Source: a virus | Direction: 5' to 3' (one strand) | DNA length: 21,238 nucleotides | Virus record (IMG/VR): IMGVR_UViG_3300032360_001426 | Coordinates: 1 to 21,238 of that record | Part shown: positions 1,305-21,238 of the stretch, piece after piece | Numbering within the stretch: position 1 is the stretch's first letter | Layout: each line of letters begins with the position of its first letter | The notes under the pieces: model-generated | Told to the model about the DNA's origin: nothing | Seen by the model: the letters and a program-made list of their open reading frames with translations, nothing else | Databases searched by the model: none | Position numbers and translations under genes: made by a program

Positions 1305-1308
1305 TTAA

Positions 1309-1315: not shown

Positions 1316-1324
1316 TTAGATAAT

Positions 1325-2074: not shown

Positions 2075-2078
2075 TTAT

Positions 2079-3125: not shown

Positions 3126-3842
3126 ATGAATATATTAAAACCTACTGAAGATTTCTTTTTTAATGGGTACTCTACACTTTCTCTCAAAGATTCTCCCGTA
3201 CAGAAGAAATTTTTAAACGCAATTGAAAAAGCTAAAGAAAACGAATTCGATCAAGAAAAGTTTTCCTGGAAGACAAAATATCCTGGTACAGAAGATTTTA
3301 GAGAGAGTATTTTTGACTATGACCCGTGTTTTATAGACATATTATTTGATAATAACATACCAGAACTAATCGAGAAATGTATTAATTATAAAAGAGTAAC
3401 ATTATCTCATATACAACTAAGAAGAGCCTACCCTGGTAATAGTTATATGGATTGGCATAGAGATAGCTATATAGACAACGGTAAACAAATCGGTATGTTT
3501 CCACCTAGCATTAAAATTATTTTTTATCCACATTATTCAAAAGATGAGGACTGCTTAAAGATTATACCTGGAACTCACATTAGATTTTTCGAAGACAGGA
3601 AAATTGATCTTGAAATTAACACTAAATTCCCGCAAAAAATCATCAAATCATCAGATCACAATATGACGCTTTTTGACACCTCTATTTGGCATAGCGCGAT
3701 CAACGGAAATGACCCAAAAGGATCACTTAGATTAGTTTATAACTTTTCAAACAAAAAACAATATTTAGAAAATTTCGCGGAGAAACCCATTCATGAAAGA
3801 ATAAACAGTTACTATGAGCAAAAACTCCAAGAAAAAAATTAA
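3126..3842 (+). CDS. phytanoyl-CoA dioxygenase-like 2-oxoglutarate/Fe(II) oxygenase
   Basis: A 238-residue protein with the 2OG/Fe(II) dioxygenase facial triad: H111 and D113 in DWHRDSY, distal H189 in DTSIWHSA, and R202 in GSLRLVYNF as the likely 2-oxoglutarate-binding residue. The spacing and length match small PhyH-type oxygenases. These hydroxylate small molecules, sugars or protein side chains using O2, Fe(II) and 2-oxoglutarate. It is the first gene of a long plus-strand sugar island, so a hydroxylated sugar or a glycosylation site on a protein are plausible targets, but the substrate is not visible. It overlaps the next gene by 29 bases, indicating co-translation. No signal peptide is seen. 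Confidence 0.75.
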   Translation: MNILKPTEDFFFNGYSTLSLKDSPVQKKFLNAIEKAKENEFDQEKFSWKTKYPGTEDFRESIFDYDPCFIDILFDNNIPELIEKCINYKRVTLSHIQLRRAYPGNSYMDWHRDSYIDNGKQIGMFPPSIKIIFYPHYSKDEDCLKIIPGTHIRFFEDRKIDLEINTKFPQKIIKSSDHNMTLFDTSIWHSAINGNDPKGSLRLVYNFSNKKQYLENFAEKPIHERINSYYEQKLQEKN

Positions 3843-4872
3843 AACATGTTTTATTGGTTTAGGTAAGAGAGCTAGGACGTTCTATATACCAATATTGCAA
3901 AAACTTAATGAAGAATTTGAACTCACTGGCTTTACAAAAAAGACTAACCTTCGTGCAAAAGAAATAGAACAGCAATATAACATTCGTTTTTTTAATTCGA
4001 TTAGATCTATGGTAGAAAATAACCCTTCAGAATTAATAATCGTCTGTGTACCGTCTACCGAAGTACCTAAAGTTGTTAATGAGCTCCAAAATGTCAATGC
4101 TACTATTTTTATTGACACTCCAGTATACTGGGATGTTAATCAAACAAGTAAATTAAACATTTTAGCATCAGAGCAATGGCCATTTTTGCCTATAGAACAG
4201 TTTAAAAAGTTATTAATTGATAGTGGAGAACTCGGTGATGTATTTTATTCAGAGAATGACAGCAGAACTTTCGAATATCATGGAATAGCACAATTAAGAA
4301 ACTATTTTCATTCTAAAAAACAAATATCTAAAATTACAGGTTCAATGTTATTTAGACCTGAGGAACAATGGAATTTTGGAGTAGTTCGATATTCAGATAA
4401 TACTGGATTTTTGTATAAATTTAGCTATTTCACTAAAAAGTCTAGTTTTAGAACACATCAAGCATTAAAAATATATTGCACAAAAGGCAGTATTATTTCT
4501 GGCTGCTTACATGAAAAAGGGAATGACTATGAAATTTTTAAAATCTCTAAAGCTGTTAATGATAACGCAGAACATTGTAACGCTATAGTCAAAAGAAGTG
4601 AAAAAACTATAACAAACAAAGACACTTCGTACCATAGTGGTACAAACTACTATGAAATAGAGAGTATATCTTGTGAGTTTAGCAACGACAAAAAAATAAT
4701 TTGGCAAAACCCGTTTTTAGGAAAAGGATTTAATGATCAAGAAATAGCGATAGCCACATTACTTACTAACGCTAGAAATGTTTCTCAAGGAACAAGCGAA
4801 GCTCTCTACCCAGCTTACAAATCATATCAAGATTACGTAATTATGAACCATATACGACAGTCATCACAATGA
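3814..4872 (+). CDS. Gfo/Idh/MocA-family oxidoreductase with atypical active-site motif
   Basis: A 352-residue protein with an N-terminal Rossmann fold (CFIGLGKRA around residues 12-20, then IIVCVPST near 75-82) and a long C-terminal alpha/beta part, as in Gfo/Idh/MocA NAD(P)-dependent sugar oxidoreductases. The family's catalytic EKP tripeptide is replaced by DTP at residues 101-103, so the usual active-site lysine is missing. YHGIAQLRNYF near 155-165 could carry other functional residues. The protein may be a dehydrogenase of different chemistry or a non-redox sugar binder. It overlaps its upstream neighbour by 29 bases and is joined to the downstream methyltransferase gene by an ATGA overlap, so it belongs to the same operon. 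Confidence 0.65.
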   Translation: MSKNSKKKIKTCFIGLGKRARTFYIPILQKLNEEFELTGFTKKTNLRAKEIEQQYNIRFFNSIRSMVENNPSELIIVCVPSTEVPKVVNELQNVNATIFIDTPVYWDVNQTSKLNILASEQWPFLPIEQFKKLLIDSGELGDVFYSENDSRTFEYHGIAQLRNYFHSKKQISKITGSMLFRPEEQWNFGVVRYSDNTGFLYKFSYFTKKSSFRTHQALKIYCTKGSIISGCLHEKGNDYEIFKISKAVNDNAEHCNAIVKRSEKTITNKDTSYHSGTNYYEIESISCEFSNDKKIIWQNPFLGKGFNDQEIAIATLLTNARNVSQGTSEALYPAYKSYQDYVIMNHIRQSSQ

Positions 4873-5477
4873 AAACAACACCTAATTTAGATTTTATAGT
4901 AAAAAAACATCATTTAAATGATACTGGATTAACAAGACATTATTTAACTTTATATTCTATAGTTTTAGGAATGGAATCAAAAAATGTATTTGAATTTGGC
5001 GCTGGTTTCTCAACTCAAGTAATAGTAGAAGCGCTAAAATTAACTAATGGTAAATTAACCAGTGTAGATATGAGACCTTTATTTACACGAGAAGATATAC
5101 CCAGTGATTTTTTAGATAATAATAAGGATGTATGGTCTTTTAATGAAGGTAATTCGTTAAACGTTGTACCTACTTTAGATCATAGTGAGTGCTACGATGT
5201 TGTATTGCACGACGGCTCTCATACAGGTACCGAAGTTACTCAAGATTTAAACAATATAGCTCCGTATGTTAAAAGCGGTGGTTTAGTTTTAATACATGAT
5301 ACAGCTCATTATGACTTAGGTCCTGAAATGAGACAAGGATTATTAAATAGTGATTTAATTAAAAACTATAAACATGATGGATCGACGCTACCGTATGGTT
5401 ATGGTTTAACTATTGTTAAAATCCTTCGTAATCATAATAATAATAAATCAGTTAATATTACATGGAGAAAAATGTAA
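4869..5477 (+). CDS. class I SAM-dependent methyltransferase (Methyltransf_24-like)
   Basis: A 202-residue protein with the class I fold signature: motif I FEFGAGFST at residues 41-49, acidic strand-2 end SVD at 65-67, YDVVLHDGSHTG at 109-120 and GGLVLIHDT at 137-145. The HDGSH/HDT pair is typical of small methyltransferases often found next to glycosyltransferases and O-antigen genes, where they methylate sugar hydroxyls. The start ATG overlaps the stop of the oxidoreductase gene (ATGA), giving translational coupling. The target is unknown; a sugar O-methyl group is the contextual guess. Confidence 0.75.
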   Translation: MKTTPNLDFIVKKHHLNDTGLTRHYLTLYSIVLGMESKNVFEFGAGFSTQVIVEALKLTNGKLTSVDMRPLFTREDIPSDFLDNNKDVWSFNEGNSLNVVPTLDHSECYDVVLHDGSHTGTEVTQDLNNIAPYVKSGGLVLIHDTAHYDLGPEMRQGLLNSDLIKNYKHDGSTLPYGYGLTIVKILRNHNNNKSVNITWRKM

Positions 5478-5478
5478 T

Positions 5479-6300
5479 ATGGGTTTAGGAGGTCATTTAA
5501 TGTGGACAGCCGTCGCCGCGGCAATAAAAAAGGAAAAAAACGTACCGGTTTTACCGATAGATGATTCTCGTACGGTAATAAATAGTGAAATATTTATTAA
5601 TAATTCAAACTTCACAACTAATAAGAATAATGATCATTTTTGTATAAATTTATCTAATCCAGCATTAATTTATTTGGAAGAACATGGCTCTAGAGTTAGG
5701 TTTAAGACTAACGAACATGTAATTACATTTTGTTGTAAACAATTAGGTATAAAAAATTATAAATTAAAGTGTGAACTATTTTTAACTGAAGCTGAGGAAA
5801 CTCAGGCACAAAAAGTTGTTCAAACTTTACCAACAAAATACATATGTATTGAGCCTTATTCAAAAATGAGCTGGTCGCAAGGGAAAGTATACCCTTTTAC
5901 AAAATGGCAAAACATAATTAACACTCTAAAAGATAAAGTTTCTTTTGTTCAGGTCGGATCAGGAGGTCAACCGGCCTTAGAAAATGTAATAGATTTAAGT
6001 GGTAAGCTTTCTTTTAGAGAATGTTCGTACGTACTCAAGAAGTCGTCTTTACTTTTAGCTTCAGAAGGCGGTATTGTTCATCTAGCTAACGCAGCTAACA
6101 CTAAATCTGTTGTAATTTTTACAAGCTTTCACTCTCATCCTTCTGTTTTTCATTATCCAGATAATATTATAGTTGATATCTCTCTCTACCGAGACGAGAT
6201 TGGCGGTTATAAAAATCATCCACTTTTAAAACAAGAGCGTGATATACACAATGAGAATGAAATAATACATTTTATAAATGAAAATATATATAGCTTTTGA
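5479..6300 (+). CDS. GT9 (heptosyltransferase-like) glycosyltransferase
   Basis: I start this 273-residue protein at the ATG at 5479, one base after the preceding TAA. It begins MGLGGHLMWTAV, matching the glycine-rich G-x-GD/G-x-L start of GT9 proteins; a longer frame from 5413 would add an Ile-rich stretch that reads as an artefact of the upstream gene. The C-terminal nucleotide-binding half is recognisable: YICIEPYSK near 121-129, a W..KW run near 132-143, DLSGKLSF near 172-179, and SEGGIVHLANA near 195-205, which fits the GT9 pattern D/S-x-G-x-x-H-x-A. GT9 enzymes add heptose or related sugars from nucleotide donors. The N-terminal acceptor half is shorter than in the usual ~350-residue enzymes. 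Confidence 0.65.
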   Translation: MGLGGHLMWTAVAAAIKKEKNVPVLPIDDSRTVINSEIFINNSNFTTNKNNDHFCINLSNPALIYLEEHGSRVRFKTNEHVITFCCKQLGIKNYKLKCELFLTEAEETQAQKVVQTLPTKYICIEPYSKMSWSQGKVYPFTKWQNIINTLKDKVSFVQVGSGGQPALENVIDLSGKLSFRECSYVLKKSSLLLASEGGIVHLANAANTKSVVIFTSFHSHPSVFHYPDNIIVDISLYRDEIGGYKNHPLLKQERDIHNENEIIHFINENIYSF

Positions 6301-7207
6301 TTTTATTGATGGTCCCTCTGGCGGAGGAAATCAATTTTTAAAAAATTTACATGATGAATTCTTTAAAAAGGATGTATATTGCAATGATCCGGGACAAGCA
6401 GATGTTATTCTTTTTAACGGTCATCACAACCCGAATGAAATAGGAAGGCTAAAAAATAAATTCTCAAATAAGTTTTTCGTACATAGGATTGATGGTGTAT
6501 ATAAATTATATAATAGGCTCACCGATATTCGACAAGATATATCTTTTAAAATGAATGAAGCTTTCTCTGATGCGACTGTATTTCAATCTAAATGGGCGTA
6601 TACCGAACTTATAAAACAAGGATTAAACTTACAAAATAAACCTAATAGAGTAATATCAAATGCAGCAGATAATAAAGTCTTTTTTTCATGTCCTTCATAT
6701 TTAACACGTGAACATTCTGATAAAATAAACATTGTTTCTACCGGATGGTCAGATAATCCTAATAAAGGTACTTCTTTTTATAATTATTTGGATAGTCATT
6801 TAGACTTTAGTAAGTATACTTTAACTTTTATAGGCAATTCTCCCACTAAATTTAAAAATGCAAAATCTATTCTACCACTTAATAGAGAAGACTTAGCTAA
6901 TGAATTAAGGTCAAAGGATATATTCTTTTTCCCGTCAAAATATGAGTGTTGTTCGAATTCTCTTATAGAAGGAATAAGCTGTGGTCTTATTGCTATAGCT
7001 TTGAATAGTGGTGGTAACATAGAGATTATTAATAGATGTAGTGCAGGTGTTTTATTTGATAATAAGGAAGATTTAATTTGCAAAATTCAAGAAATAAGTT
7101 ATAATATAAAAGAGCGAAGAGAAAGAATAACACCCCCGGTTCTTGATATTATATCTAATCAATATATTAATTTTTTTAAACGATGCATAGAGTCAACATT
7201 AGCATAG
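6278..7207 (+). CDS. GT4-type (group 1, GT-B) glycosyltransferase
   Basis: A 309-residue protein with the retaining GT4 signature. SKYECCSNSLIEG gives an E223-x7-E231 pair, followed by the nucleotide-binding GLIAIALNSGG near 236-246. The N-terminus has a glycine-rich GPSGGGNQFL loop at 12-21, as expected for the acceptor domain, and VHRIDGVY near 68-75 resembles the family's VHR.dg pattern. Such enzymes transfer a sugar from a nucleotide donor in the cytoplasm. The ATG lies 23 bases inside the end of the GT9 gene, and the frame runs 25 bases into the deacetylase gene, so the three are likely translated as a block. Confidence 0.82.
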   Translation: MKIYIAFDFIDGPSGGGNQFLKNLHDEFFKKDVYCNDPGQADVILFNGHHNPNEIGRLKNKFSNKFFVHRIDGVYKLYNRLTDIRQDISFKMNEAFSDATVFQSKWAYTELIKQGLNLQNKPNRVISNAADNKVFFSCPSYLTREHSDKINIVSTGWSDNPNKGTSFYNYLDSHLDFSKYTLTFIGNSPTKFKNAKSILPLNREDLANELRSKDIFFFPSKYECCSNSLIEGISCGLIAIALNSGGNIEIINRCSAGVLFDNKEDLICKIQEISYNIKERRERITPPVLDIISNQYINFFKRCIESTLA

Positions 7208-7887
7208 ATGACGTGAGTCCTCACCCACGCTCGTCTATTACTGTTTTAGATAGGTGCTATGAACTAATAGATATTTTTCCTGATATTAAATTTACTTTAT
7301 TTGTACCTACTGCTTATTGGCGAGCAATGTCTGAACCAAACCAAGAGCCATATTTTTTGCATAAGTATTCAAAATTTTGCGAAGCATTAAAGAAATTAAA
7401 TAAACAAAATTTTGAATTAGGGTTTCACGGTCATTTTCATAGTTCGATACATAATAAAAGTAATAATGATGAATTTAGACATGTAACGTATAAACAAGCA
7501 ACACAAATAATTAATACAATGCTGTTGGAGTGTAATCAATCTGGATTAATAGATTATTTTAAACCTATTATTAGACCTCCTGCATGGAAAATGACAAAGG
7601 AAGCTATAAAAGCTGCGTCTGATTCGGGTATAAAGTATTTTTGTTTATCAAAAGCAGATTATGCTATTAAAACGTATGAAGGAGCTGACAAAAACGTTAA
7701 TACTATTTATCAAACATGTAGTCCTCCGTTTCTCCCTCTTAACCTCACAGAGCAAACAGAGATAGTCTATCATGCTTATGAACCAGATAGAAATTTCTTA
7801 AGTATAACAATGAAAAATGACCTTGTTGACTTTTTAAAAGTAAATAAAAAAGAAATAAAGTTTTGCTTTATACAAGATATGTTGTAA
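7183..7887 (+). CDS. polysaccharide deacetylase-like protein (NodB/DUF2334 type)
   Basis: A 234-residue protein carrying the carbohydrate esterase 4-like metal and catalytic motifs: ISIDDVSP with D9/D10, ELGFHGHFHS with H82, H84 and H86, and IRPPAWK at 131-137. These are the typical order and spacing of NodB/DUF2334 deacetylases, which remove an N-acetyl group from amino sugars using a divalent metal. No signal peptide or anchor is present, unlike exported peptidoglycan deacetylases, so it should act in the cytoplasm, for example on a nucleotide-linked or lipid/protein-bound sugar. It overlaps the GT4 gene by 25 bases. Confidence 0.72.
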   Translation: MHRVNISIDDVSPHPRSSITVLDRCYELIDIFPDIKFTLFVPTAYWRAMSEPNQEPYFLHKYSKFCEALKKLNKQNFELGFHGHFHSSIHNKSNNDEFRHVTYKQATQIINTMLLECNQSGLIDYFKPIIRPPAWKMTKEAIKAASDSGIKYFCLSKADYAIKTYEGADKNVNTIYQTCSPPFLPLNLTEQTEIVYHAYEPDRNFLSITMKNDLVDFLKVNKKEIKFCFIQDML

Positions 7888-7890
7888 AAA

Positions 7891-8478
7891 ATGATAAAAA
7901 AATATTATACAAAAGAGAGCTTTGATAAAAAGGAGTACACGACTGCTCAAATAAAAAGACATTCAGTTAAAGCTAACCAACGTAAAAGTGAAGGATTTTA
8001 TAGAATTGTACACAAAAACTTGACGCCTTTCTTGTCCCGAGTCCATCCCTCAAAACTAAAAATGCTTTGCCTTGGAACACGAAACAACTGGGAAAGAGAC
8101 GTATTTCAATCTCTATTAAAAGAGGTCAAAGTGTATTCTTTAGATATAGCCCCGGCTTCCAACGCAGACTATATTATGGATTTTAATAGTTTTCCAAACG
8201 ATTGGGAGAACAAGTGGGATATAATATATTCTAATGCAATAGATCATTCAATATCATCTGATAACTGTTTTAAGGAATGGGTTAGAATATTAAAACCAGG
8301 AGGATTAATGTATACAGACTGGGCAACCCAAAACTCAAAAAAAATAACCCCAACCGCAGCAGATTGTAGCATTTTTTCAGAAGAAGCCGTGAAGACAGTA
8401 ATGGGAGACACCTCCTTTAATATTGAAATACTTTTAGAGAAAGAGGGCCAATGGTTAATTAAAAAAGGTGAGAGATAA
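7891..8478 (+). CDS. class I SAM-dependent methyltransferase (Methyltransf_11-like)
   Basis: A 195-residue protein with a variant motif I, MLCLGTRNNWE (58-68), an acidic strand-2 end VYSLDIAP (81-88), KWDIIYSNAIDHS (108-120) as motif II and WVRILKPGGLMYTDW (130-144) as motif III. Motif I lacks the usual GxGxG, having GTRNN instead, but the rest fits a class I fold. The N-terminal ~40 residues are basic. It starts 3 bases after the deacetylase stop. The next gene is another methyltransferase-like protein with a similar LKP-G-V/YxDW segment, so the two may be paralogues with different acceptors. Confidence 0.65.
   Translation: MIKKYYTKESFDKKEYTTAQIKRHSVKANQRKSEGFYRIVHKNLTPFLSRVHPSKLKMLCLGTRNNWERDVFQSLLKEVKVYSLDIAPASNADYIMDFNSFPNDWENKWDIIYSNAIDHSISSDNCFKEWVRILKPGGLMYTDWATQNSKKITPTAADCSIFSEEAVKTVMGDTSFNIEILLEKEGQWLIKKGER
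8465..8472 (+). promoter_or_regulatory. Shine-Dalgarno site deciding the start at 8480
   Basis: AAGGTGAG lies 7 bases before the ATG at 8480. It favours that ATG over the GTG at 8468, which falls inside the site itself. Confidence 0.5.
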
Positions 8479-8479
8479 C

Positions 8480-9082
8480 ATGGGCAAATCAGATCCGCAT
8501 TATTTTAATTTTTGTAACCAGCATATAAAGTCTGAAGGAGAAACGGCGCTTCTAGGATTTGTCAATAACAATCATTTCCAAGGTGACTTATATGACTTAT
8601 CTCTTAACAATTGGGATATTAACTCCAACTGGAGACTTACTCAAAAATATGATACCATAATTTGCACAAGATGTGCTTACTTCTCAAAAGATCCGCGAGA
8701 CTTTATTGAAATATGCCACAAACACTTAAAACCTAAAGGGAAACTATTCGTTGATTGGGGTCTCGGCGATCATTGGAGATTTCCAAATTATAAGGTAGGT
8801 TGGGTAAAAGATGGAGAACATGAATGGGCATATAAAGAAGACAATTATCTTTGGTCGACAGTTTGGGATGATTTATTTATTGATAATAATGAATTTCAAA
8901 CTTTTTCTCAAAGAATACAGAAACATAATTATCAAAATACTAAAGTGGCAATTTTCGATGAAGTGCCTAAAATTATTAATATAGGTTTTATAAACACACT
9001 CTTTGAAACTGAGTATAATATGTTGACTTTATGGGAAGATTCACCACAGCTTTATATACTTATATCAGGTACTAAAAAATGA
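8480..9082 (+). CDS. methyltransferase-like protein lacking motif I
   Basis: A 200-residue protein from the ATG at 8480. KYDTIICTRCAYFSKDPRDF (56-75) and HLKPKGKLFVDWGLGDHW (82-99) resemble the last two conserved blocks of class I SAM methyltransferases, and VGWVKDGEHE (106-115) follows. The N-terminal glycine-rich SAM-binding motif I is not recognisable: the region reads ALLGFVNNNHF. Either the fold is reduced and binds SAM differently, or it partners with the complete methyltransferase directly upstream. The gene is separated from that neighbour by one base and runs into the dehydrogenase gene with an ATGA overlap. Confidence 0.55.
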   Translation: MGKSDPHYFNFCNQHIKSEGETALLGFVNNNHFQGDLYDLSLNNWDINSNWRLTQKYDTIICTRCAYFSKDPRDFIEICHKHLKPKGKLFVDWGLGDHWRFPNYKVGWVKDGEHEWAYKEDNYLWSTVWDDLFIDNNEFQTFSQRIQKHNYQNTKVAIFDEVPKIINIGFINTLFETEYNMLTLWEDSPQLYILISGTKK

Positions 9083-9873
9083 ATAACTCAATAGGAATAA
9101 TAGGAGGAGGTTTTGTTGGCTCTGCAACAGCTTGGGCCTTTCGCCCTACTCATGAAGTAAAAGTTTATGATAAAGACCCGAAAGCCTCTATGCACACGCT
9201 CAAAGAAGCAGTTGACTCAGACTTTGTATTTATATGTGTACCAACTCCACCTAAAGAAGACTGGACAATAGATCTTTCTATAATAGAGAGTGTGTTTGAA
9301 AATATAAAATTATATCAACGATATCCTCCTCAACAATTTTTAATTAAATCAACTGTCCTTCCCGGTACTTGTCGTAAGATGTCGAAAAAATACGGACTTA
9401 GAGTTTCATCTAATCCTGAATTCTTAACAGAAAGAAGAGCTAAGTGGGACTTTATAAACGCTGCCCAAATATTAATCGGATCTGACGATTCGGAAGATGC
9501 TAGTAAAATTCAAGAACTTTATGAACAAAGATTCAACTCAATGAAATATACTATCACCGATACAGTTACGTCAGAGCTTATAAAATATACATTGAATTGT
9601 TTTTTCGCCACTAAGGTCTCATTCATGAACGAAGTTAAAATACTATCAAATAAAATAGGAGCAGACTGGGACAAACTGGTAGAAGGTTTCACGAGCGATA
9701 GCAGAGTCGGAGACTCGCATGTAGATGTCCCCGGGCCTGATGGAAAGCTTGGATTCGGCGGTAAATGTTTTCCAAAAGATCTGAACGCCTTAATGGAGCT
9801 ATTTAGAAGCAATAATATTGACCCTTTGGTTATGCAAGCCGCTTGGGAGAGAAATCAAAAAACCAGAATATGA
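9079..9873 (+). CDS. UDP-glucose/GDP-mannose dehydrogenase-family enzyme, short form
   Basis: A 264-residue NAD-dependent sugar-nucleotide dehydrogenase. Seen: Rossmann IGIIGGGFVGSA (5-16), VFICVPTP (50-57), STVLPGT (91-97), SSNPEFLTE (110-118), the K169/N173 helix followed by MNE (183-185), and the catalytic thiol C230 in GFGGKCFPKD. These enzymes oxidise the C6 alcohol of UDP-glucose, UDP-GlcNAc or GDP-mannose to a carboxylate. Usual members are 390-450 residues with a third C-terminal UDP-binding domain. Here the protein ends 34 residues after the catalytic cysteine, so that domain is missing. All catalytic residues I can check are kept. ATGA overlaps join it to both neighbours. Confidence 0.8.
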   Translation: MNNSIGIIGGGFVGSATAWAFRPTHEVKVYDKDPKASMHTLKEAVDSDFVFICVPTPPKEDWTIDLSIIESVFENIKLYQRYPPQQFLIKSTVLPGTCRKMSKKYGLRVSSNPEFLTERRAKWDFINAAQILIGSDDSEDASKIQELYEQRFNSMKYTITDTVTSELIKYTLNCFFATKVSFMNEVKILSNKIGADWDKLVEGFTSDSRVGDSHVDVPGPDGKLGFGGKCFPKDLNALMELFRSNNIDPLVMQAAWERNQKTRI

Positions 9874-10901
9874 ATTTCATTGTTAGTGAAGTTACTTTTT
9901 TAAGATACTTTATTCCTCTTATAATAGAGGGTAATAAAAGAGGAGTTACATCTAAAGTTTTTTTACGTCCAACACCCTCTAAATACAATTGCCCTGGTAA
10001 GTGGAAGTCGCGAATCAAAGAATTGTCTGCAGAATATGCATTTGAAACACTTTCTATATCAAAAATCGACACAGAACCGGGATTAACTTTTTTAGTTGAA
10101 GGATGCGGAATAGAACACTTAAACAATTCTCATTATAAAATCTCTTTAACCTTTATGCTTGATTTTTGTGGCGCTAGTTACGATAAGTATATCGATAAAG
10201 TTGATTTAGTTATTTTTATAAGTGAGTTCGTGGCGAAACACTACAATAGAATTTCAGAAAAAAATCTGTACCTAGGTTCTCCAAAATATGATGTTACTCT
10301 TGACAGAGACATCATTATAAAAAACTTTAAATTAGATCCTGACAAAAGAAATGTTTTTATATTAGGTCCGCCAACCTCTCAAAGGAGCACTACAACATAT
10401 CCTCATCTAAATAAAAACAAAATAAACAGCCTATATAACAATTTACGTGAAAATTTAAAAGAGTATAATTTTATTTATAAAACACGAGGTAAGGATCCTC
10501 TTGCTGGTAACCCATATTCTAATAAAACAGGTAGTCAATTTGAAGATTCTTTTTGGTTTCCTCATGATTCAATGCAACTTATACATATTAGCGATTTTGT
10601 TGTGTGTTTTGATTCCTCAGCCATAAAAGAAGTAACCATGATGGAAAAACCTCTTATAAATTTTAAAACAATGGATTCACTTCCTTCTCTCGATCCTCCT
10701 AGATGCTTAACTAAAGCTAGAGGTTTCGATTTCTTATATCAATACAATCATTGTTTAGACAGAACCTTAGATTTATCTTCAAAAGAATTAGAAAAAGATA
10801 TAAATCACCTATTAACTAGTAAATTTGATTTTACGGAAGCGAAACAAAAACATTTTTACCTAGGAAAAAGGTCTAGCGAAGATATTTTAAATACGTTATA
10901 A
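9870..10901 (+). CDS. putative GT-B glycosyl/glycerophosphotransferase-like surface-carbohydrate protein
   Basis: A 343-residue protein from the ATG at 9870, whose ATGA overlap couples it to the dehydrogenase. A longer frame from a TTG at 9843 is less likely. The C-terminal block at residues 231-265 (PHDSM..LIHISDFVVCFDSS..KEVTMMEKP) matches the D/S-x-x-S...E...P pattern of the nucleotide-binding half of CDP-glycerol glycerophosphotransferases and UDP-GlcNAc 2-epimerase-like GT-B proteins. VFILGPP near 162-168 could begin the second Rossmann domain. The exact family is uncertain and the donor unknown. A role transferring or rearranging an activated sugar fits the position just before neuB. 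A 2-epimerase role would supply the ManNAc needed by NeuB, but no epimerase-specific residues can be confirmed. Confidence 0.45.
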   Translation: MNFIVSEVTFLRYFIPLIIEGNKRGVTSKVFLRPTPSKYNCPGKWKSRIKELSAEYAFETLSISKIDTEPGLTFLVEGCGIEHLNNSHYKISLTFMLDFCGASYDKYIDKVDLVIFISEFVAKHYNRISEKNLYLGSPKYDVTLDRDIIIKNFKLDPDKRNVFILGPPTSQRSTTTYPHLNKNKINSLYNNLRENLKEYNFIYKTRGKDPLAGNPYSNKTGSQFEDSFWFPHDSMQLIHISDFVVCFDSSAIKEVTMMEKPLINFKTMDSLPSLDPPRCLTKARGFDFLYQYNHCLDRTLDLSSKELEKDINHLLTSKFDFTEAKQKHFYLGKRSSEDILNTL

Positions 10902-10902
10902 A

Positions 10903-12353: not shown

Positions 12354-12385
12354 AGAAATTTAAAAATTCGAGAATAAATTAATAT

Positions 12386-13958: not shown

Positions 13959-14743
13959 TTGATATTATTTTTACATATTTTAATCAAAAAGAATATACTA
14001 GAGAAATGCTTTTATATCTTGATAAATTTATAGAAAAGCATTTTTTAGAAAAAATTATTTTTACAATCGTTGATGATAATAGTGATTATCCTTTAATAGA
14101 TTATTTACCAGAGCTTAATAATTTAAATTTAAAAATATATAGAACGGATTTTAATGGTTATAATATAGCAGGAGCAATAAATCTTGGTTGCCATATGGCA
14201 GAAACATCGTCCGTTTGTTGTTTAGATATGGACATGATATTATATAATAGTTTTATTGAGGAATTATTACAGTTAAGAATTACTGATGACCGTCATTATA
14301 GGTTTTTGTTAGATAGGTGTACACAGGTTCACTTATCTACAGGGAAAATAAAATATAAACCTACAGGTTGGCATGGAATTACGTCTAAAAATAATAGAAT
14401 TAAATTTTCTCACGACGAGCGATTTTCAGGTAGTTGGGGATACCACGGAAAGTTTATGTTAGATTGCTTAAGCAACCATGGTATTACATCATCTTATTTA
14501 CATAACAAAGTAATAATGCCTAGGCAAGTTCTTATTAATGGTGAGTTATATAATCCTTATTCTAATACTACAGAAAGTAAAAATACAAAGCATCATACTG
14601 CTGGAGAAACACCAGACTTAAATAGAAACAAACTAACAAATAAGCCATTATATAATAAACTATTGGCTGAGCTTAAGACGGGTAAATATCAACCGTCTAC
14701 ACCTTTAAATTTTAATTATAATTTAATATATAAAAATATATGA
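13955..14743 (+). CDS. GT2-type (GT-A) glycosyltransferase, copy a, with altered catalytic site
   Basis: A 262-residue GT-A protein. Seen: IIFTYFNQK (4-12), VDDNSDYP (39-46), RTDFNGYNIAGAINLG (63-78) and the metal-binding DMD at 91-93. The C-terminal acceptor half has WGYHGKFM at 161-168. The minus-strand GT2 (18156-18920) has the same layout, sharing the TYFNQ, RTD..x.N.AGA.NLG, D-x-D and LNFNY elements. It carries YGYEDEYF at the equivalent site, so the usual Glu-Asp catalytic pair is replaced here by His-Gly. The product may be inactive, may act on a different donor, or may be structural. Both neighbours overlap it by ATGA. Confidence 0.75.
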   Translation: MIDIIFTYFNQKEYTREMLLYLDKFIEKHFLEKIIFTIVDDNSDYPLIDYLPELNNLNLKIYRTDFNGYNIAGAINLGCHMAETSSVCCLDMDMILYNSFIEELLQLRITDDRHYRFLLDRCTQVHLSTGKIKYKPTGWHGITSKNNRIKFSHDERFSGSWGYHGKFMLDCLSNHGITSSYLHNKVIMPRQVLINGELYNPYSNTTESKNTKHHTAGETPDLNRNKLTNKPLYNKLLAELKTGKYQPSTPLNFNYNLIYKNI

Positions 14744-15603
14744 ATATTGCTGTATGCATAAGCGGGGAGCCTCGTGAATTTACTTTTTTTGAGAATAGTA
14801 TAAACTTGTTTAAAGAACAGTGTGCTAATAATAATATTACTTTGCATGTTTTTTATCATTTATGGGATCATATTTCTCGTCGACAACGCAATTATAAATC
14901 TCAAGAACCGATTTTGCAAAAAATCCCTGTAGAAGATATTGTTACTAAAATACCTGTTACTGATGGTGTATTTGAAAATAAAGATTCTTTATTACCGGAA
15001 GTAGATTACGTTTGGGAATATATTTGTAATCTTAAAGAATCGCATCCTAGATATGATACTAAAGAAATTTTAAAGAATCAGCTTTTATATACTAATTCTC
15101 CCGGGTATTGTCAATTATCTAGTTTGTGTAAAAGCAATTTAATTAGAATAGAGTATGAAAAGAGATATAATATACAGTACGATCTGGTTATAAGAACTAG
15201 AACTGATGTGGAGTTTTTCTGTAAAGACATTACTTATTTAATAAACCTTATAAACAACGGTACCTTTGATAAAAAAATATATTTTCCTGAAATAGAAGTA
15301 TGGAATATGAAAAATGAATTACAGGTGATTCCGGAGTTTTGTTTTTTACTTTCTAATTCTAATATATTGAATGAGAATATATTTAATAATTATTGTGAAA
15401 AAATTACTAAGGATATGTTTTTTTATAACAATACAAGAAAAAATGTTGGAATTCGCAACGATCATACGGTTTTTGTAAATCTTATCTTACATAATATAAA
15501 AATTAAACTCCAATCTAATATTCGCAATGCGTTTAAATATAAAATTTACCAACTATCTGCCGAATATAGTAAGGACATAAAAACAAAATATAGTCATTAT
15601 TAA
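14740..15603 (+). CDS. YDxVIxxRTD-family glycosyltransferase-like protein X1a
   Basis: A 287-residue protein starting MNIAVCISGEPREF. Its parts are IAVCISGEPRE at 3-13, an F-x-H-x-WD block at 38-43 and YDLVIRTRTD at 147-156, where the final RTD resembles a GT-A metal-binding acidic motif. I do not recognise a named family with certainty. Three other genes here share this layout, and this one is closest to the gene at 18920-19909 by its GEPRE/TEPRF start and HVF.HxWD block. A GT-A glycosyltransferase is the likeliest role from context and motif, but it is an inference. It overlaps the GT2 gene by ATGA and the kinase-like gene by TAATG. Confidence 0.5.
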   Translation: MNIAVCISGEPREFTFFENSINLFKEQCANNNITLHVFYHLWDHISRRQRNYKSQEPILQKIPVEDIVTKIPVTDGVFENKDSLLPEVDYVWEYICNLKESHPRYDTKEILKNQLLYTNSPGYCQLSSLCKSNLIRIEYEKRYNIQYDLVIRTRTDVEFFCKDITYLINLINNGTFDKKIYFPEIEVWNMKNELQVIPEFCFLLSNSNILNENIFNNYCEKITKDMFFYNNTRKNVGIRNDHTVFVNLILHNIKIKLQSNIRNAFKYKIYQLSAEYSKDIKTKYSHY

Positions 15604-16319
15604 TGAAATTGCCCCATACCAATAAAAAGCAGGTTGACTTGTTTTATAAAAATTTCACACGTCTTGCGCGCAAGCACAGGAAGTATATTAAAAAAAGTTC
15701 AAACAATACTATATTAAAATGGTTTAATAATAAAGGCCATAAAGATAATCCGCGATCCCATAATGCATTTTATAGAGAATTAAGTATATTACAAACTCTC
15801 GAAAGAGAATTTATTAATGAGCCTAAAATAAATCATTACCCGTTCCCTAAGATATTATCATACAGTGAGGTACCAGATTCGCAAAATATGATGTATTTTG
15901 AAATGAACTATTGTGGTATAAATGCTCTAGAAAACGCTTTTAATTACACACACCAAAAAAATATACAACCTACTAATTTATACGACACAGTAGTATGTAT
16001 AATAAACAATTTAAAAAACAATTTAATACAATATGAAGATTTTAAAGCTAATAATGTATGTATTAACAATCATGGATATATAACATTAATTGATTTTGGG
16101 AGGTTTAAAAGGTTATGCCCGGGGCATCAGCCCAGTAAAGGTGTTACAAAAGAAAGTATTAATAAATTTTATAAAAAAAAGAACAATCTAAAAGATAAAC
16201 TATATGATAACATAGGGTGTTTAGAACATGAACATTTAATATACAAAGCCTTAGAGGACTTTAAATGGAAACGTTCAATATTTAAACTAAATCCATGGAG
16301 TATGTTGTATATGTTTTAA
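15603..16319 (+). CDS. protein-kinase-fold protein, possibly a sugar/LPS kinase
   Basis: A 238-residue protein with a kinase-like C-lobe: YEDFKANNVCI at 144-154 corresponds to the catalytic loop (D146 as base, N151 for metal) and TLIDFGRF at 161-168 to the DFG magnesium motif. FYREL near 56-60 could give the alpha-C glutamate (E59). The glycine-rich loop and the VAIK-type lysine are not clear, but the N-terminal ~50 residues are very Lys/Arg-rich. It is about 240 residues, like LPS core kinases of the WaaP/KdkA type, which phosphorylate sugars. It could equally phosphorylate a protein. It sits inside the glycosyltransferase cluster, coupled by TAATG to the gene before it. Confidence 0.6.
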   Translation: MKLPHTNKKQVDLFYKNFTRLARKHRKYIKKSSNNTILKWFNNKGHKDNPRSHNAFYRELSILQTLEREFINEPKINHYPFPKILSYSEVPDSQNMMYFEMNYCGINALENAFNYTHQKNIQPTNLYDTVVCIINNLKNNLIQYEDFKANNVCINNHGYITLIDFGRFKRLCPGHQPSKGVTKESINKFYKKKNNLKDKLYDNIGCLEHEHLIYKALEDFKWKRSIFKLNPWSMLYMF

Positions 16320-16351
16320 TTTTTTATAAAACTCTAATGAAATTAACACAT

Positions 16352-16360: not shown

Positions 16361-16396
16361 GAAATCAGCCCGGTCAACTTCGTGGTATATAAAAAA

Positions 16397-17338
16397 ATGA
16401 AAGTCGCAGTTTTATTATATGGACAGCCTAGATTTCTTCATTTAACTTATAAGAAAATTAAAGAAGAATATAATATACCTGGTACTGATGTAAAGTTCTT
16501 TATTCATTTTTGGGAAGACATTAGTTTTTATCCTCTTTGTGATAGACATAATAATTATATTACTGATTACAATATATCTAAATACATTGACTACATAAAA
16601 CCAGAAAAAATTAATATAGAAAGTTTTAAAGATTTAGATACATTAACCTTACAATTACAAAACACATTAAGTTTTTTACAATTTAAAAAGGTATCTACTA
16701 GGACTGTTAAAACAAAAGATAGATATAAATTCGGACAACATTTAAGCCTTCATAAAGCATATAATTTAATGGAATTATATGAAAATGAAAACAATATAAA
16801 GTTCGATGTTGTAATTAAAACTCGTACTGATTTTATATATGATAAAAATAAAAATAATAAATATGAATCTTATATACCCCCTAAGAATAAACTACATTTA
16901 AATTGCGCTATCGCTTCAGGTTTGAGTATAAGAACATATAATGTTGAAAATCAAGAATTTTTTGGTAGTAAATTAAAAGAATATATTCCTGATATCACTT
17001 TAAAGGAAAAACAACTACACTGTAATATAAGAATGGATGATATTAACGTGAGTGCTACTCGAGCCGCGGCGAGGTATTTTTTTACTAAATGGTTTACAAC
17101 ATTTATACGTACATTTATATTTGATATGGACAATAACACAGAAGGGAACTTACGGTCGTATAAAGGTCACGATGTAATACAAGGAGATATAGCTTTATAT
17201 TATAAAATAAATGTAATTAGACGTCCAATAAAGCGATATATACGGTTATATTTAAAGGATAAGTGTAAAGCTAAATGGATAACGGGTTCGTCTATTGATG
17301 TGACTAATATTAAAAGAGAAAGGGATTTAATTTATTAA
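16397..17338 (+). CDS. YDxVIxxRTD-family glycosyltransferase-like protein X2a
   Basis: A 313-residue protein from the ATG at 16397; a GTG at 16382 would add five residues but is less convincing. It has MKVAVLLYGQPRF at 1-13, KFFIHFWED at 33-41, YKFGQHLSL near 110-118 and FDVVIKTRTD at 136-145. It is closest to the minus-strand gene at 19914-20984, sharing GQPRFL, YKFGQH and the RTD element. Family not named with certainty; a GT-A-like transferase is inferred from the RTD element and context. Its 3' end overlaps the convergent minus-strand gene by 12 bases. Confidence 0.5.
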   Translation: MKVAVLLYGQPRFLHLTYKKIKEEYNIPGTDVKFFIHFWEDISFYPLCDRHNNYITDYNISKYIDYIKPEKINIESFKDLDTLTLQLQNTLSFLQFKKVSTRTVKTKDRYKFGQHLSLHKAYNLMELYENENNIKFDVVIKTRTDFIYDKNKNNKYESYIPPKNKLHLNCAIASGLSIRTYNVENQEFFGSKLKEYIPDITLKEKQLHCNIRMDDINVSATRAAARYFFTKWFTTFIRTFIFDMDNNTEGNLRSYKGHDVIQGDIALYYKINVIRRPIKRYIRLYLKDKCKAKWITGSSIDVTNIKRERDLIY

Positions 17339-18163
17339 TTGCTTATATAAATTTATAATTTTCTCTAATTTATCTTTCAAATGAAATTTTGAAAATAATC
17401 TTATTTTATATCTCGGTATATTCATCATGCTCTCTATCTCTCTCACATATGCTTGGGCATAATTTTTAAAAAAATCTGGACTCATTACATGCTCTTTTGT
17501 ACCCATAGCAGATAACCCTTTCCATAAAGATATACTATGTAAATGATAAATTTGCAAAGAAATTGGATGCTTATAAAAAAAATATCCATGTTTTGATGTT
17601 AAAGTGTCATAGGTAGTGTGATCAGCATCCCATATATTTCCTGTCATAAGGTCTTTATGTAAGACTTCGTCGGTAATAAATAAGGATTGATTAGATTGAA
17701 TCCGGGTCCTCCCATTACTATAGCGAACATGTTTATGTACATGAAATCCTTTTTTTCTTCTTCCGCCCAGAGGGTCCATACAGGCATATTGAAATACGTT
17801 TACTCCAGTATAATAGGAATCGCGCAGACCTCCATAGTCTCCGTGAATATCAACAATAAATAGGTCATCGTCATCTTGTTGATAAAATAATATATTTTTA
17901 TCTTTTGTATTATAAAAATATTCTTTACACTCTTGATTATTTTTTAATATAGTAGTAAAATAATTAGACTCTTCTATATTTTCTATTACTATATCTCTTA
18001 TTTTTTTTCGAAACTCTAAATATGGTATGTTTAAACTTTCATCCCATATTTTTATAATCTTAAATATGACCTTATATAGTTTTTTTTTGTTTTTAAATAC
18101 CGGATATATATTTAAATTCTCCCAATAATCTTTATCACCTCTAATATGACATATTTTATGCAT
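17327..18163 (-). CDS. putative glycosyltransferase with QDDDD motif
   Basis: A 278-residue protein. The one clear motif is YQQDDDDLFIVDIHGDYGG near residues 94-112: a run of four Asp like the DDDD metal-binding stretch of rhamnosyltransferase-like GT-A proteins (TRLDDDDAL-type). The C-terminal half has GFHVHKHVRYSNGRTR near 139-154 and many aromatic residues. There is no signal peptide or membrane segment. The donor is unknown and the family call rests on the single motif plus the surrounding transferase genes. It is the last gene of the minus-strand block, overlapping the upstream GT2 gene by 8 bases. Confidence 0.45.
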   Translation of the reverse strand: MHKICHIRGDKDYWENLNIYPVFKNKKKLYKVIFKIIKIWDESLNIPYLEFRKKIRDIVIENIEESNYFTTILKNNQECKEYFYNTKDKNILFYQQDDDDLFIVDIHGDYGGLRDSYYTGVNVFQYACMDPLGGRRKKGFHVHKHVRYSNGRTRIQSNQSLFITDEVLHKDLMTGNIWDADHTTYDTLTSKHGYFFYKHPISLQIYHLHSISLWKGLSAMGTKEHVMSPDFFKNYAQAYVREIESMMNIPRYKIRLFSKFHLKDKLEKIINLYKQLIN

Positions 18164-18920
18164 AGTTCGACATTGTTAATTTATAGTTAAAATTTAATTG
18201 CATTGTTGGTGTAATAAAATTCTTTTTCTTCTCGCAATACAAATCATAATTAATTTTTACATCACCTTCTCGGTCTAACCCAATTGTATACCCAGGATTA
18301 TTTCTCGGAGTTTTACCGAGATTCCGGTCCTTTATGTATATAGGGTACATAACTATTCTATTTGTAAAAAAACTTGATTTAATTTTATTATACTTGAGTA
18401 TATCTTTAAAATATTCATCTTCATATCCATAATGATTATTGAAGTCTTCATCCATCGGATATTTCATATATAATTCTCTTTTTATATACACCGGAGAGGC
18501 AATCTGCTTGTAGAGAAATAAATTATTCTCTAAATCTATACTTAAAGGTCCTTCTCTAAGAAATCTCTTATATTCGTTATTAGTTAATTTACAGTTTAAT
18601 ATTTCATATAAAAGGTTATTAGTTAAAATCATATCTATATCTACACTAACAATATTATCAGCTCTACTTTTTATAACTCCTAAATTTCGAGCACCAGCGA
18701 CATTAAATTTTTTGTAATCGGTGCGCCAAATTTCAAAGTTTAAATTTTTAGTTTTAGGGAAATAATTATGAGCTGGATATTCATGGCTACAATCATCAAC
18801 AATAATAAAATTTATTTTATCTTGTATACTTTTATCTAAAAATTTGTCATAATATTTAAAAAGTACATTGAGCATTTGATGCTGATTAAAATATGTATAA
18901 ACTATAGATATTTTTTTCAT
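18156..18920 (-). CDS. GT2-type (GT-A) glycosyltransferase, copy b, intact catalytic motif
   Basis: A 254-residue GT-A protein: IVYTYFNQH at 6-14, VDDCSHEYP at 41-49, RTDYKKFNVAGARNLG at 66-81, metal-binding DID at 94-96, and YGYEDEYF at 164-171, whose ED is the expected catalytic/metal-contact pair of GT2/GT7-like transferases. A closing LNFNYKL is shared with the plus-strand copy at 13955. It is preceded by the RTD-family gene at 18920, with which it shares a TAATG overlap. It adds a sugar from a nucleotide donor in the cytoplasm; the donor is unknown. Confidence 0.78.
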   Translation of the reverse strand: MKKISIVYTYFNQHQMLNVLFKYYDKFLDKSIQDKINFIIVDDCSHEYPAHNYFPKTKNLNFEIWRTDYKKFNVAGARNLGVIKSRADNIVSVDIDMILTNNLLYEILNCKLTNNEYKRFLREGPLSIDLENNLFLYKQIASPVYIKRELYMKYPMDEDFNNHYGYEDEYFKDILKYNKIKSSFFTNRIVMYPIYIKDRNLGKTPRNNPGYTIGLDREGDVKINYDLYCEKKKNFITPTMQLNFNYKLTMSNYA

Positions 18921-19909
18921 TAAAACTTTAAATGCTGGTACATTTTTTTAGTTTTTATAATTTCATGTTGATGTAATTTATATGCAGTAGATGTATATTC
19001 ATGTTCATGCCAAATTTGTCTACTTAAATGGTTTAATTTATACTTCCACATTCCGGGCTTGGTATTTCCTCCGTTTATTCCAGGTTTCATGTGCTGAATA
19101 ATATATTCAGGAACTACAAAATGAGAAGTTCGCTCATGTATTTTATCTTTTATATATGGTAATGTAATATTATATAATTTTTCCTCAAAATTGTTTAAGG
19201 TTTTAGTATTTATAAATGTTGAAGACCCTAAAAAGGCAGCATATTCCATCCACAAATTTCTACCTGGATTAATACATAACCGAGGACATAAGGTATTATG
19301 CCTTATAGAGTTTTTCTTAAGTTTATTTATTCGTGCCAAGCAATACTGCGGATCGTTGTTTAATATTTGATATAAAGCTTGATCAATACGACTACGAATA
19401 ATAATATCATATTGTATATCATTCTTTTTTGCGTAATTACTTGCAATCTGGAAACTTTTTAACATGCTATATATTTGAGATATGCATGGTTCGTTAGTAT
19501 ATTTTATTCTAAATTGTAAATGTTTTTCGTCTTGTACCCATTGTCCGCTTTGTATATGTTTTTTATGGGGTTGTATAATAAACTGTTCTGTATATTCGTC
19601 TAATATATCTTTATTTTGTACTAAATAATCTGTTGGTTGAAATTCATCAATTAGTTTATTTATTTCTATATTATAGTTAAAGATAAAATCCTTTTTTTCA
19701 TATTTTTTAGTTTTGAAAATTTGCTTATACTCTTGTTGATCATATCTTATTGACAATTCATCCCAAACATGTATAAAGACATGTAAATTTATGCCTCTTT
19801 GCTTAGCCCAGTGTTTTATATACTTTGTATTTTCAGCGGTTACTTCCCAAAATCTTGGCTCTGTACTTAAACATAACGCTATATTATTATTAAAAATATT
19901 CGGCGTCAT
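18920..19909 (-). CDS. YDxVIxxRTD-family glycosyltransferase-like protein X1b
   Basis: A 329-residue protein starting at the ATG complementary to 19909. It shows NIALCLSTEPRFW (9-21), HVFIHVWDE (43-51) and YDIIIRSRID (167-176), the RSRID version of the family's RTD element. The closest relative in the window is the plus-strand gene at 14740. An extra ~40-residue stretch lies between the HVWD block and the RID element, compared with the plus-strand copy. Function inferred as a GT-A-like transferase. It starts 4 bases after the stop of the upstream X2b gene. Confidence 0.5.
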   Translation of the reverse strand: MTPNIFNNNIALCLSTEPRFWEVTAENTKYIKHWAKQRGINLHVFIHVWDELSIRYDQQEYKQIFKTKKYEKKDFIFNYNIEINKLIDEFQPTDYLVQNKDILDEYTEQFIIQPHKKHIQSGQWVQDEKHLQFRIKYTNEPCISQIYSMLKSFQIASNYAKKNDIQYDIIIRSRIDQALYQILNNDPQYCLARINKLKKNSIRHNTLCPRLCINPGRNLWMEYAAFLGSSTFINTKTLNNFEEKLYNITLPYIKDKIHERTSHFVVPEYIIQHMKPGINGGNTKPGMWKYKLNHLSRQIWHEHEYTSTAYKLHQHEIIKTKKMYQHLKF

Positions 19910-19913
19910 ATAA

Positions 19914-20984
19914 TTATTTAAATTTATGTGTTAATATATTCTGACGTATTTGTTCTTCTGATCTAACCATAATTTTCCCCTTAGTTCCCACATCTTTTTT
20001 TACTTGCAAAGGATGTAGTAATCTTACATCTCTTCTAGGACTTATTTTTCGAGCTATTAAATTATAATTTAATAGCATTTGCCCTTGTAAGCAATGATCT
20101 GACATAGATATAAAAAAGTCATTGGTATTATTATTAATTATATCTTTAGATACAGTAAGAAAATAATTTTCAAACCAATTATTAAACATTATCTCTGCTC
20201 CTTCTCTATTAGCTATTAAAGTCCAATCATTAAACGCAAGTCTCTGCTTGTAGTTTTCTGTTTGTTTAGTCCATCCTACTTCATTTAACGGGTCATATTT
20301 TATATCTTCATTCTTGTGAAACAAAACATGATTATTATAAAACGCACGCATCGGTATATTATGCTCTGTTGATTTACCATTAATTTTTTCTGTAAGATCT
20401 ACATATCGCAGCGCAGCACACTTCACCATAGGTACATTAAAATTTAAATTGGTGTACATATCTTCTTTGGTTTTATAATACTTTTCTTCGTCACTATAAT
20501 TTTCTTTTACACTATATACTATATCTGTTCTTACTTTAATAATAACATCATATTTAAAGTTGTTTTCATGTTCGTATGACATAATACGTCTAAAGGCCCA
20601 CTTCATACTTTGATGCTGACCGAATTTGTATCTTAATTTTTCGATTGCACTGTTTATACTTATAGGTAGATTTCGTTTATGTAATCTTATAAAATTTAAT
20701 ATATTATTACATGTTTCATCTAAATTTTCATAGTTTTGTATAATTATATTTCTCTGTGATGGTTTGTTAGGAAGAACTGAATTAGGTAATTTTTCTTCTA
20801 CTAAATCATATATTTCTTTTTTGTCATATTCCTCCTCTTCACCATTAGGTATATACCCAATTTTATCCCACCAATGAGCGAAATAATGTACTTCGTGACC
20901 TGGGAGATCAAATTCTTCTCTTATTAGATTAATAGTATGCTTTAAAAATCTAGGTTGCCCAAACATTAATATTGCTATTTTCAT
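19914..20984 (-). CDS. YDxVIxxRTD-family glycosyltransferase-like protein X2b
   Basis: A 356-residue protein if the ATG at 20984 is used; a TTG three codons upstream is less likely, and this ATG overlaps the TGA of the preceding methyltransferase (ATGA). Motifs: MKIAILMFGQPRFL (1-14), HYFAHWWDK (33-41), YKFGQHQSM near 119-127 and YDVIIKVRTD (145-154). It resembles the plus-strand X2a gene at 16397 over its whole length but is ~40 residues longer, with an acidic insert after the WWD block. Function inferred as a GT-A-like transferase. Confidence 0.5.
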   Translation of the reverse strand: MKIAILMFGQPRFLKHTINLIREEFDLPGHEVHYFAHWWDKIGYIPNGEEEEYDKKEIYDLVEEKLPNSVLPNKPSQRNIIIQNYENLDETCNNILNFIRLHKRNLPISINSAIEKLRYKFGQHQSMKWAFRRIMSYEHENNFKYDVIIKVRTDIVYSVKENYSDEEKYYKTKEDMYTNLNFNVPMVKCAALRYVDLTEKINGKSTEHNIPMRAFYNNHVLFHKNEDIKYDPLNEVGWTKQTENYKQRLAFNDWTLIANREGAEIMFNNWFENYFLTVSKDIINNNTNDFFISMSDHCLQGQMLLNYNLIARKISPRRDVRLLHPLQVKKDVGTKGKIMVRSEEQIRQNILTHKFK

Positions 20985-21238
20985 AATATACAAAGATAAT
21001 TAGATTTTGTTATATATACATAAGAACTATAATTTTGTAATTTTTTTAACCACCACTTGGTTCCTTGTATCGTGGCGTGTAATTCTCCGTCGCCAAATTT
21101 ATTTTCTAATGACCGGCGCTTATGTCTACTAGGGTTGTGATTAATAGAATGAATCATTATATGTTTACCTATACGAGTCATTTCGCTTAAAACCTTATCC
21201 ACTTCTTCTGGTATTAAATGTTCTAAAAAATCAAATGA
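20981..21238 (-). CDS. C-terminal end of a class I SAM methyltransferase, cut by the window edge
   Basis: The reading frame stays open to base 21238, so the start lies outside the window; a GTG at 21202 is internal and not the true start. The visible 85 residues begin SFDFLEHLIPEEV, then LSEMTRIGKHIMIHSIN. This matches the D-x-x-EH..P...v...l.EM.Rv.k segment that follows motif II of Methyltransf_11 proteins. It is the first visible gene of the minus-strand block and is coupled by ATGA to the X2b gene, suggesting a shared role in glycan tailoring. Its substrate is not visible. Confidence 0.55.
   Translation of the reverse strand, partial: SFDFLEHLIPEEVDKVLSEMTRIGKHIMIHSINHNPSRHKRRSLENKFGDGELHATIQGTKWWLKKLQNYSSYVYITKSNYLCIL

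Follow-up and report, generated by a model that had tools for sequence, protein, structure and literature searches.

An exchangeable carbohydrate island with a sialic-acid-type pathway in T4-like marine phages, and its possible role in virion glycosylation

What does a virus do with a long run of sugar-modifying genes that brings along no gene for moving a glycan across a membrane? We put this question to IMG/VR virus record IMGVR_UViG_3300032360_001426, the whole of which (21,238 bp) was analysed and is called the window here, and in particular to its sugar island at positions 3126-21238. The flanks were read via related records; seven relatives were taken in (G001, G002 and G004-G008), the largest of which, G004, spans 200,819 bp. 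On sequence grounds, we identify it as a carbohydrate island belonging to a T4-like marine myophage, which sits in a fixed slot and is exchanged gene by gene. The reading that we slightly favour, with a probability of roughly 0.48, is that this island serves to glycosylate virion proteins late in infection.

Results

The island occupies a fixed slot in a T4-like backbone and is exchanged gene by gene

Positions 1-3053 of the window are T4-like phage backbone, with genes for QueD, QueE, a kinase-like AAA protein, a 63-aa protein and PhoH; the last (2253-3053, minus strand; PF02562, 2.4e-50) forms the left boundary of the island. Window genes named below lie on the plus strand unless marked minus. 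Of 33 viral contigs with a PhoH match, 26 have it at 82-98% identity and the remaining seven at 49-55%. The backbone of G004 includes, by PHROG matches, a T4-like portal, head closure protein, gp23-type major head protein, contractile tail sheath and terminase, and UvsX, DNA polymerase (gp43), gp46/47-like proteins and UvsW were identified by eye. Its major head protein is ~31% identical to cyanophage counterparts such as those of S-SKS1 and P-TIM68.

In all relatives that reach far enough, the island lies in a single slot between phoH and a radical-SAM gene. This right-hand gene (G004 192145-193194) lies roughly 11 kb before the portal gene, a distance read across G006 (genes 144 to 158), G004 being cut there. 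The slot is filled differently from contig to contig: after phoH, 17 contigs carry an island that we call type A, five the gene set of G008, one (L002) the window set, and one (L022) something else. The 2.6 kb past phoH in L022 match none of the three tested island types, and probably represent a fourth.

The edges of homology fall at genes. Alignment (blastn) to type A relatives covers nearly all of the intergenic stretch that separates phoH from the island (3054-3125, conserved) and ends at 3123, 3 bases ahead of the first island start codon; it resumes in the single-gene blocks 4869-5471 (the open reading frame (ORF) ends at 5477) and 13305-13958. Positions 12361-13258 are homologous to a second locus of G004, and 18910-21238 to the contig L087. 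Within the minus-strand gene 19914-20993, the first 620 bp (window 20366-20985) are 91% identical to L085/L088 and the remainder only 73%, a step that reads as a recombination join inside a glycosyltransferase gene. Taken together, these comparisons show island genes being exchanged one at a time, at gene boundaries.

Exchange has left the genes intact. They are open throughout, overlap tightly and retain catalytic motifs, and since the ratio of nonsynonymous to synonymous substitution rates (dN/dS) against relatives is 0.06-0.25, the exchanged genes are under selection. The locus thus combines a T4-like backbone, contiguous sugar-nucleotide enzymes and glycosyltransferases, and variable content in a conserved slot, as an exchangeable carbohydrate island does.

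The island carries a nonulosonic acid module

The less expected element of the island is a nonulosonic (sialic) acid module. Sequenced phage genomes hardly ever contain this pathway, whereas its NeuB synthase is common in IMG/VR. A NeuB-type synthase (10903-11724; PF03102, 7.7e-60; PDB 6ncs) retains the active-site and TIM-barrel motifs but consists of the TIM-barrel part only and lacks the C-terminal domain that usually follows. Phage relatives (L035-L037) align with it over an equal length. It is followed by a cytidylyltransferase of the cytidine monophosphate (CMP)-sialic-acid type (11721-12353; PF02348, 8.6e-23; PDB 1qwj, 6e-31) with a ARGGSKSIPKKN motif, and a second cytidylyltransferase (13305-13958; PF02348, 2.3e-19; PDB PpNeuA, 2.7e-14) is present at 77-83% identity in all compared island types. 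The NeuB and NeuA-type enzymes would make a CMP-activated sialic-acid-like sugar. Since NeuB matches TIGR03569 (2.4e-57, 194.5 bits) below the N-acetylneuraminate synthase equivalog cut-off of 399.65, this sugar is best described as a nonulosonic acid, Neu5Ac or other. UDP-GlcNAc 2-epimerase (PF02350, NeuC/WecB) was found neither in the window nor in G001-G007, and was present in G008 and G012; with none on the contig, the N-acyl-mannosamine-type precursor must come from the host or from elsewhere in the genome.

Among 50,697 sequenced phage records, NeuB occurred in three, two from uncultured viruses and one labelled Moritella viscosa. In contrast, an alignment-based search of IMG/VR gave at least 538 confirmed stretches, the best 80 of which were kept (L091-L170). 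The fetched flanks of 18 of these best 80 loci contain a PhoH homologue. Our literature searches turned up no publication about NeuB in phages, although one may exist.

The remaining island genes are predicted to build and decorate a glycan

The initial annotation had the coordinates and gene content of the island right but somewhat understated the content, in that it missed a Gfo/Idh oxidoreductase, NeuB and the two CMP-sugar cytidylyltransferases. Its count of at least nine glycosyltransferase-like proteins corresponds to nine ORFs. These are a GT9 (heptosyltransferase-like) enzyme (5479-6300; PF01075, 3.6e-8), for which ATG 5479 is the probable start and a TTG at 5413 an unlikely one; a GT4 enzyme (6278-7207; PF00534, 5.2e-12; PHROG 2170); a GT2 enzyme (13955-14743; PF00535, 2.6e-6) and a GT2-like one slightly below the cut-off (18156-18920, minus; PF00535, 1.8e-4); a possible glycosyltransferase with a single weak match (9843-10901; NF046086, E=0.0038); and four members of PHROG 13607 (14740-15603; 16382-17338; 18920-19909, minus, 92% identical in L087; and 19914-20993, minus, with a likely start at ATG 20984), assigned by PHROG match and alignment.

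PHROG 13607 is a family without annotation, so its assignment draws on structure prediction. From 21 aligned members we obtained an AlphaFold2 model of the protein at 19914-20993 with a predicted local distance difference test score (pLDDT) of 84.5. Foldseek matched this model in the PDB to GT-A enzymes, including B3GNT2 and LARGE1, with probabilities up to 1.00 and E values of ~1e-5 to 1e-3, although the template modelling (TM) scores were low (0.17-0.47). Against a viral library, the model matched proteins of cyanophage S-SKS1 and of giant viruses. By these matches, the PHROG 13607 proteins are probably GT-A-fold glycosyltransferases. In cyanophage S-SM2, a relative of this family adjoins a capsular polysaccharide gene.

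The methyltransferases reported initially also hold: one is strong (4869-5477; class 24, PF13578, 1.2e-17) and common to type A islands at 81-84% identity, two are weak, with matches under the cut-off (7891-8478, PF13847, 6.6e-4; 8468-9082, PF13489, 2.4e-4), and a partial fourth (20981-21238, minus; PHROG 24759) is cut at the contig end and has a full-length relative at 93% in L087. Family matches likewise support the reported dehydrogenase, epimerase, deacetylase and kinase: a UDP-glucose/nucleoside-diphosphate (NDP)-sugar dehydrogenase without its C-terminal domain (9079-9873; PF03721, PF00984, TIGR03026, 5e-51; GGKCFPKD motif); a GalE/TviC-like nucleotide-sugar 4-epimerase (12386-13333; PF01370, 4.3e-56; PHROG 540) with a 75% copy at the second G004 locus; a polysaccharide deacetylase-like DUF2334 protein (7183-7887; PF10096, 7.9e-13) with DD and HxH motifs, for which a PDB sequence search gave no match; and a kinase-like protein with a DFG motif (15603-16319; PF00069, 1.4e-9), putatively a sugar or lipid kinase. 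The overlooked sugar oxidoreductase of the Gfo/Idh/MocA type lies at 3814-4872 (PF01408, 4.7e-10; PDB 3uuw). The first island gene (3126-3842; 97% identical in L002, dN/dS 0.25), annotated as an oxygenase, has the HxD motif but no family match in Pfam, NCBIfam or PDB, and is best called oxygenase-like. A protein with a QQDDDD motif (17327-18163, minus) belongs to a family found in the G004, G005 and G006 islands but not in G008; it has no Pfam match, and its AlphaFold2 model (pLDDT 62) was too poor for use.

The lack of membrane and export genes is ordinary for phage sugar islands

The island had been described as devoid of membrane, flippase, polymerase and export genes. Scanning for 19-residue segments with a mean Kyte-Doolittle value of at least 1.6, a procedure that detected Wzx and Wzy in the E. 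coli O16 locus, we found no candidate segment in any window ORF; of the ~790 ORFs of the seven relatives, one a 200 kb record, none had three or more segments. The Wzx family PF01943 gave no match in 11 records, two contigs of 200 and 236 kb among them, while 13 of 14 control genomes were positive. For the integral membrane export subunit of Wzm/Wzt, the absence from window and relatives rests on the same segment counts, no ABC profile having been searched in the relatives.

We then considered whether such genes might lie just outside the window. The relatives carry structural phage genes, and no flippase or polymerase was seen next to the island. L087 bridges the right end of the window, matching the terminal methyltransferase at 93% and glycosyltransferase genes at 92% and 75%, and continues with another PHROG 13607 protein, a short protein similar to gene 248 of G004, and then the radical-SAM gene and backbone. 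Between the window edge and the radical-SAM boundary it encodes glycosyltransferase-type and short methyltransferase-like proteins only. The nearest relative thus reaches the end of the island without any export gene.

This feature is not peculiar to the window. The sugar cluster of cyanophage P-SSM2 (193,428-205,500) likewise has no membrane segment in any ORF, and the best 80 of the 538 phage NeuB neighbourhoods, mostly 5 kb on each side, contain no protein with four or more segments among 1,026 proteins of at least 100 aa. Such a protein occurred in 5 of 20 alphaproteobacterial NeuB neighbourhoods of similar size (Fisher p = 2e-4 versus phage) and in 7 of 8 from other bacteria, some of which had broader flanks, that is, in 12 of 28 bacterial neighbourhoods versus 0 of these 80. 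Since phages in general encode few polytopic proteins, the contrast tells more about phages than about the glycan, and the lack of membrane genes is ordinary for phage sugar islands. The initial annotation had argued from this lack to a soluble acceptor, such as a phage structural protein or modified DNA. That idea survives in that no flippase or polymerase appeared in the relatives, but the step itself is weak, both because the P-SSM2 cluster and the 80 neighbourhoods also lack polytopic proteins and because lipid carrier, flippase, polymerase and ligase could all come from the host.

Late-promoter-like motifs precede the island operons of a relative

In G004, 12 of 43 virion-region genes have TAAATAATT in the 40 nt before them, versus 0 of 27 replication-region genes; one-mismatch matches were found at 9 of 43 and 2 of 27 genes, respectively. 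Genome-wide, 23 of 57 sites of the wider pattern [AT][AT]AAATAATT fall within 60 nt before ORFs, compared to ~4% expected. The first genes of both G004 island operons (228 and 257) have TAAATAATT upstream with one mismatch, a weak sign that the island may be expressed late. A sigma-70 promoter scan gave no signal (124 sites versus 119 in shuffles).

Other features of the phage group

Upstream of phoH, the QueD-like 6-pyruvoyl-tetrahydropterin synthase (1-414, cut at its 5' end; PF01242, 9.5e-10; PHROG 2389) is kept in relatives, the QueE-like radical SAM protein (534-1304; PHROG 2076, 1.5e-43) is 79-96% identical in them, and a nucleoside/thymidylate kinase-like AAA protein follows (1325-2074; PF13521, PHROG 2107). 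QueD and QueE (window 1-1304) belong to the PreQ0 pathway, for which G004 also has QueC-like and FolE-like genes (148810-149496 and 162502-163149). Without a TGT/DpdA family match, this pathway possibly serves host queuosine or an unusual DNA base.

G004 further encodes a DUF1552 protein (128970-130214, L047) and a prepilin-type N-terminal methylation protein (62-66 kb, L044), both of which we take to be associated with planctomycetes and verrucomicrobia. Of 96 Verrucomicrobiota genomes, 5 contained DUF1552 relatives (best 46%), versus 0 of 96 alphaproteobacterial ones, and the two proteins hint that the host may be neither SAR11 nor a cyanobacterium. The closest cellular NeuB relatives, from Anaerolineales, Verrucomicrobia and Gemmatimonadaceae, are ~50% identical, and we dropped them as a guide to the host because that level of identity is uninformative. 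Nearly 60 kb of G004 (24-82 kb, L042-L045) has almost no counterparts in relatives; it contains a carbamoyltransferase, a second copy of the window epimerase and two tRNA genes. Adjoining the tail sheath gene of G004 is a glucose-1-phosphate thymidylyltransferase-like (RmlA) gene (127783-128676, L047) with TATAAATA 9 nt upstream.

Discussion

How might such an island act? The soluble enzymes would make activated sugars in the cytoplasm, among them the CMP-activated sialic-acid-like sugar, and some nine soluble glycosyltransferases, with the methyltransferases and the deacetylase, would then build and decorate a glycan. In this reading, the sugars would be added late in infection to a protein of the virion (tail fibre, sheath or capsid), such that exchange of the island would alter the sugar coat of the particle. 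Virion proteins are slightly favoured as acceptors, with some uncertainty, because of the late-type motifs, the lack of a membrane-bound lipid-linked step and the precedent in mycobacteriophages. In G004, a PHROG 13607 gene (149) adjoins large genes (151-155) of the tail/fibre region. Virion protein glycosylation in mycobacteriophage Che8 is cited in PMC11256854; the window system would work alike, with phage transferases and a product on capsid proteins.

Several points weigh against virion glycosylation. No acceptor was identified; the sialic-acid branch is incomplete in the sequence seen, PF02350 being missing from the window and from G001-G007; the late motif of the island is one mismatch off consensus in an AT-rich genome and was recognised by composition rather than by transcription; similar islands have been interpreted by their authors as host-surface modifiers (PMC7029224, PMC7824862); and the absence of export genes, being widespread among phages, does not tell the readings apart. 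The bolder form, in which a CMP-activated sialic-acid-like sugar made by the lytic phage itself is used to sialylate the virions within the cytoplasm, the island being an exchangeable 'serotype' locus of the particle and not of the host, appears unlikely.

Nearly as likely as virion glycosylation is that the island remodels the surface polysaccharide of the infected host (the O-chain of lipopolysaccharide (LPS), or capsule) and so bars competing phages from adsorption. Phage glycosyltransferases would act at the inner membrane face on lipid-linked host precursors, and host flippase, polymerase and ligase would export the product. Bacterial O-antigen glycosyltransferases are often soluble themselves, and surface glycans of bacteria commonly contain nonulosonic acids. 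Moreover, host-surface change is the published reading for pelagimyophages, P-SSM2 and jumbo cyanophages (PMC7029224, PMC2984593, PMC7824862), and the P-SSM2 cluster so interpreted is just as free of membrane proteins. However, late-type motifs before the island leaders fit early exclusion poorly, and no membrane-bound initiating enzyme or ligase is encoded.

Other explanations are far less probable. The sugars could sit on phage DNA bases as protection from restriction, and QueC, QueD, QueE and FolE genes of the PreQ0 pathway do occur in this phage group. However, neither the thymidylate-synthase-type base hydroxymethylase of T4-type DNA glucosylation (PF00303) nor TGT/DpdA (PF01702) was found in eight records, with positive controls included, so the modified-DNA branch of the initial proposal is without support. 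To our knowledge, nine transferases and CMP-sialate chemistry also exceed any DNA sugar system. Glycosyltransferases that hypermodify phage DNA exist (referenced in PMC12619734), whereas a review finds no evidence of DNA glycosylation in cyanomyoviruses (PMC2984593); we regard this possibility as improbable. The same holds for a small soluble glycoside or secondary metabolite unattached to any macromolecule: a second cluster in jumbo cyanophages has been proposed to be of this type (PMC7824862), but the window has many glycosyltransferases and no recognised scaffold-making enzyme. Stuffer DNA, genes gathered by recombination and free of selection, has been considered as an option for the LPS clusters of cyanophages (PMC3037559); low dN/dS, intact active-site motifs, tight overlaps and open frames speak for purifying selection, and we rejected it as very improbable. 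Gene content alone might suggest a chimaeric contig or a bacterial O-antigen locus misclassified as viral, yet L002 independently spans the junction of phoH and island at 93% nucleotide identity and L087 joins window-type genes to phage backbone, which leaves this the least credible explanation, likewise rejected.

Exchangeable carbohydrate islands of T4-like marine phages are already known, from the LPS gene clusters near phoH described in P-SSM2 in 2010 (PMC3037559) to the hypervariable glycosyltransferase islands of pelagimyophages described in 2020 (PMC7029224); the window adds one with a sialic-acid-type pathway. The clusters of the T4-like cyanophages P-SSM2, S-SM2 and S-SSM7 resemble it in lying near phoH and/or hli03 and in their compact run of epimerases, glycosyltransferases, 2-oxoglutarate (2OG) oxygenase and methyltransferase (PMC3037559). 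However, the cyanophage records gave no NeuB match at E 1e-5, and their major head protein is only distantly related to that of the window group. The host recognition cluster of pelagimyophages is likewise hypervariable, rich in glycosyltransferases and subject to gradual cassette exchange (PMC7029224), but is placed between VrlC and gp14 and includes tail fibres, whereas the window island has no identified fibre gene in its slot. Bacterial nonulosonic loci for O-antigen or capsule share the grouping of NeuB, NeuA, NDP-sugar enzymes and glycosyltransferases, and differ in their polytopic proteins.

For phage biology, the finding means that missing membrane genes are a common property of phage sugar islands, and that NeuB, with three sequenced phage records against at least 538 stretches of IMG/VR viral contigs, is a case in which the two collections differ. 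The closely related phages described here form a set with a constant backbone in which mainly the sugar island changes, and such a set makes the function of phage 'LPS genes' directly testable.

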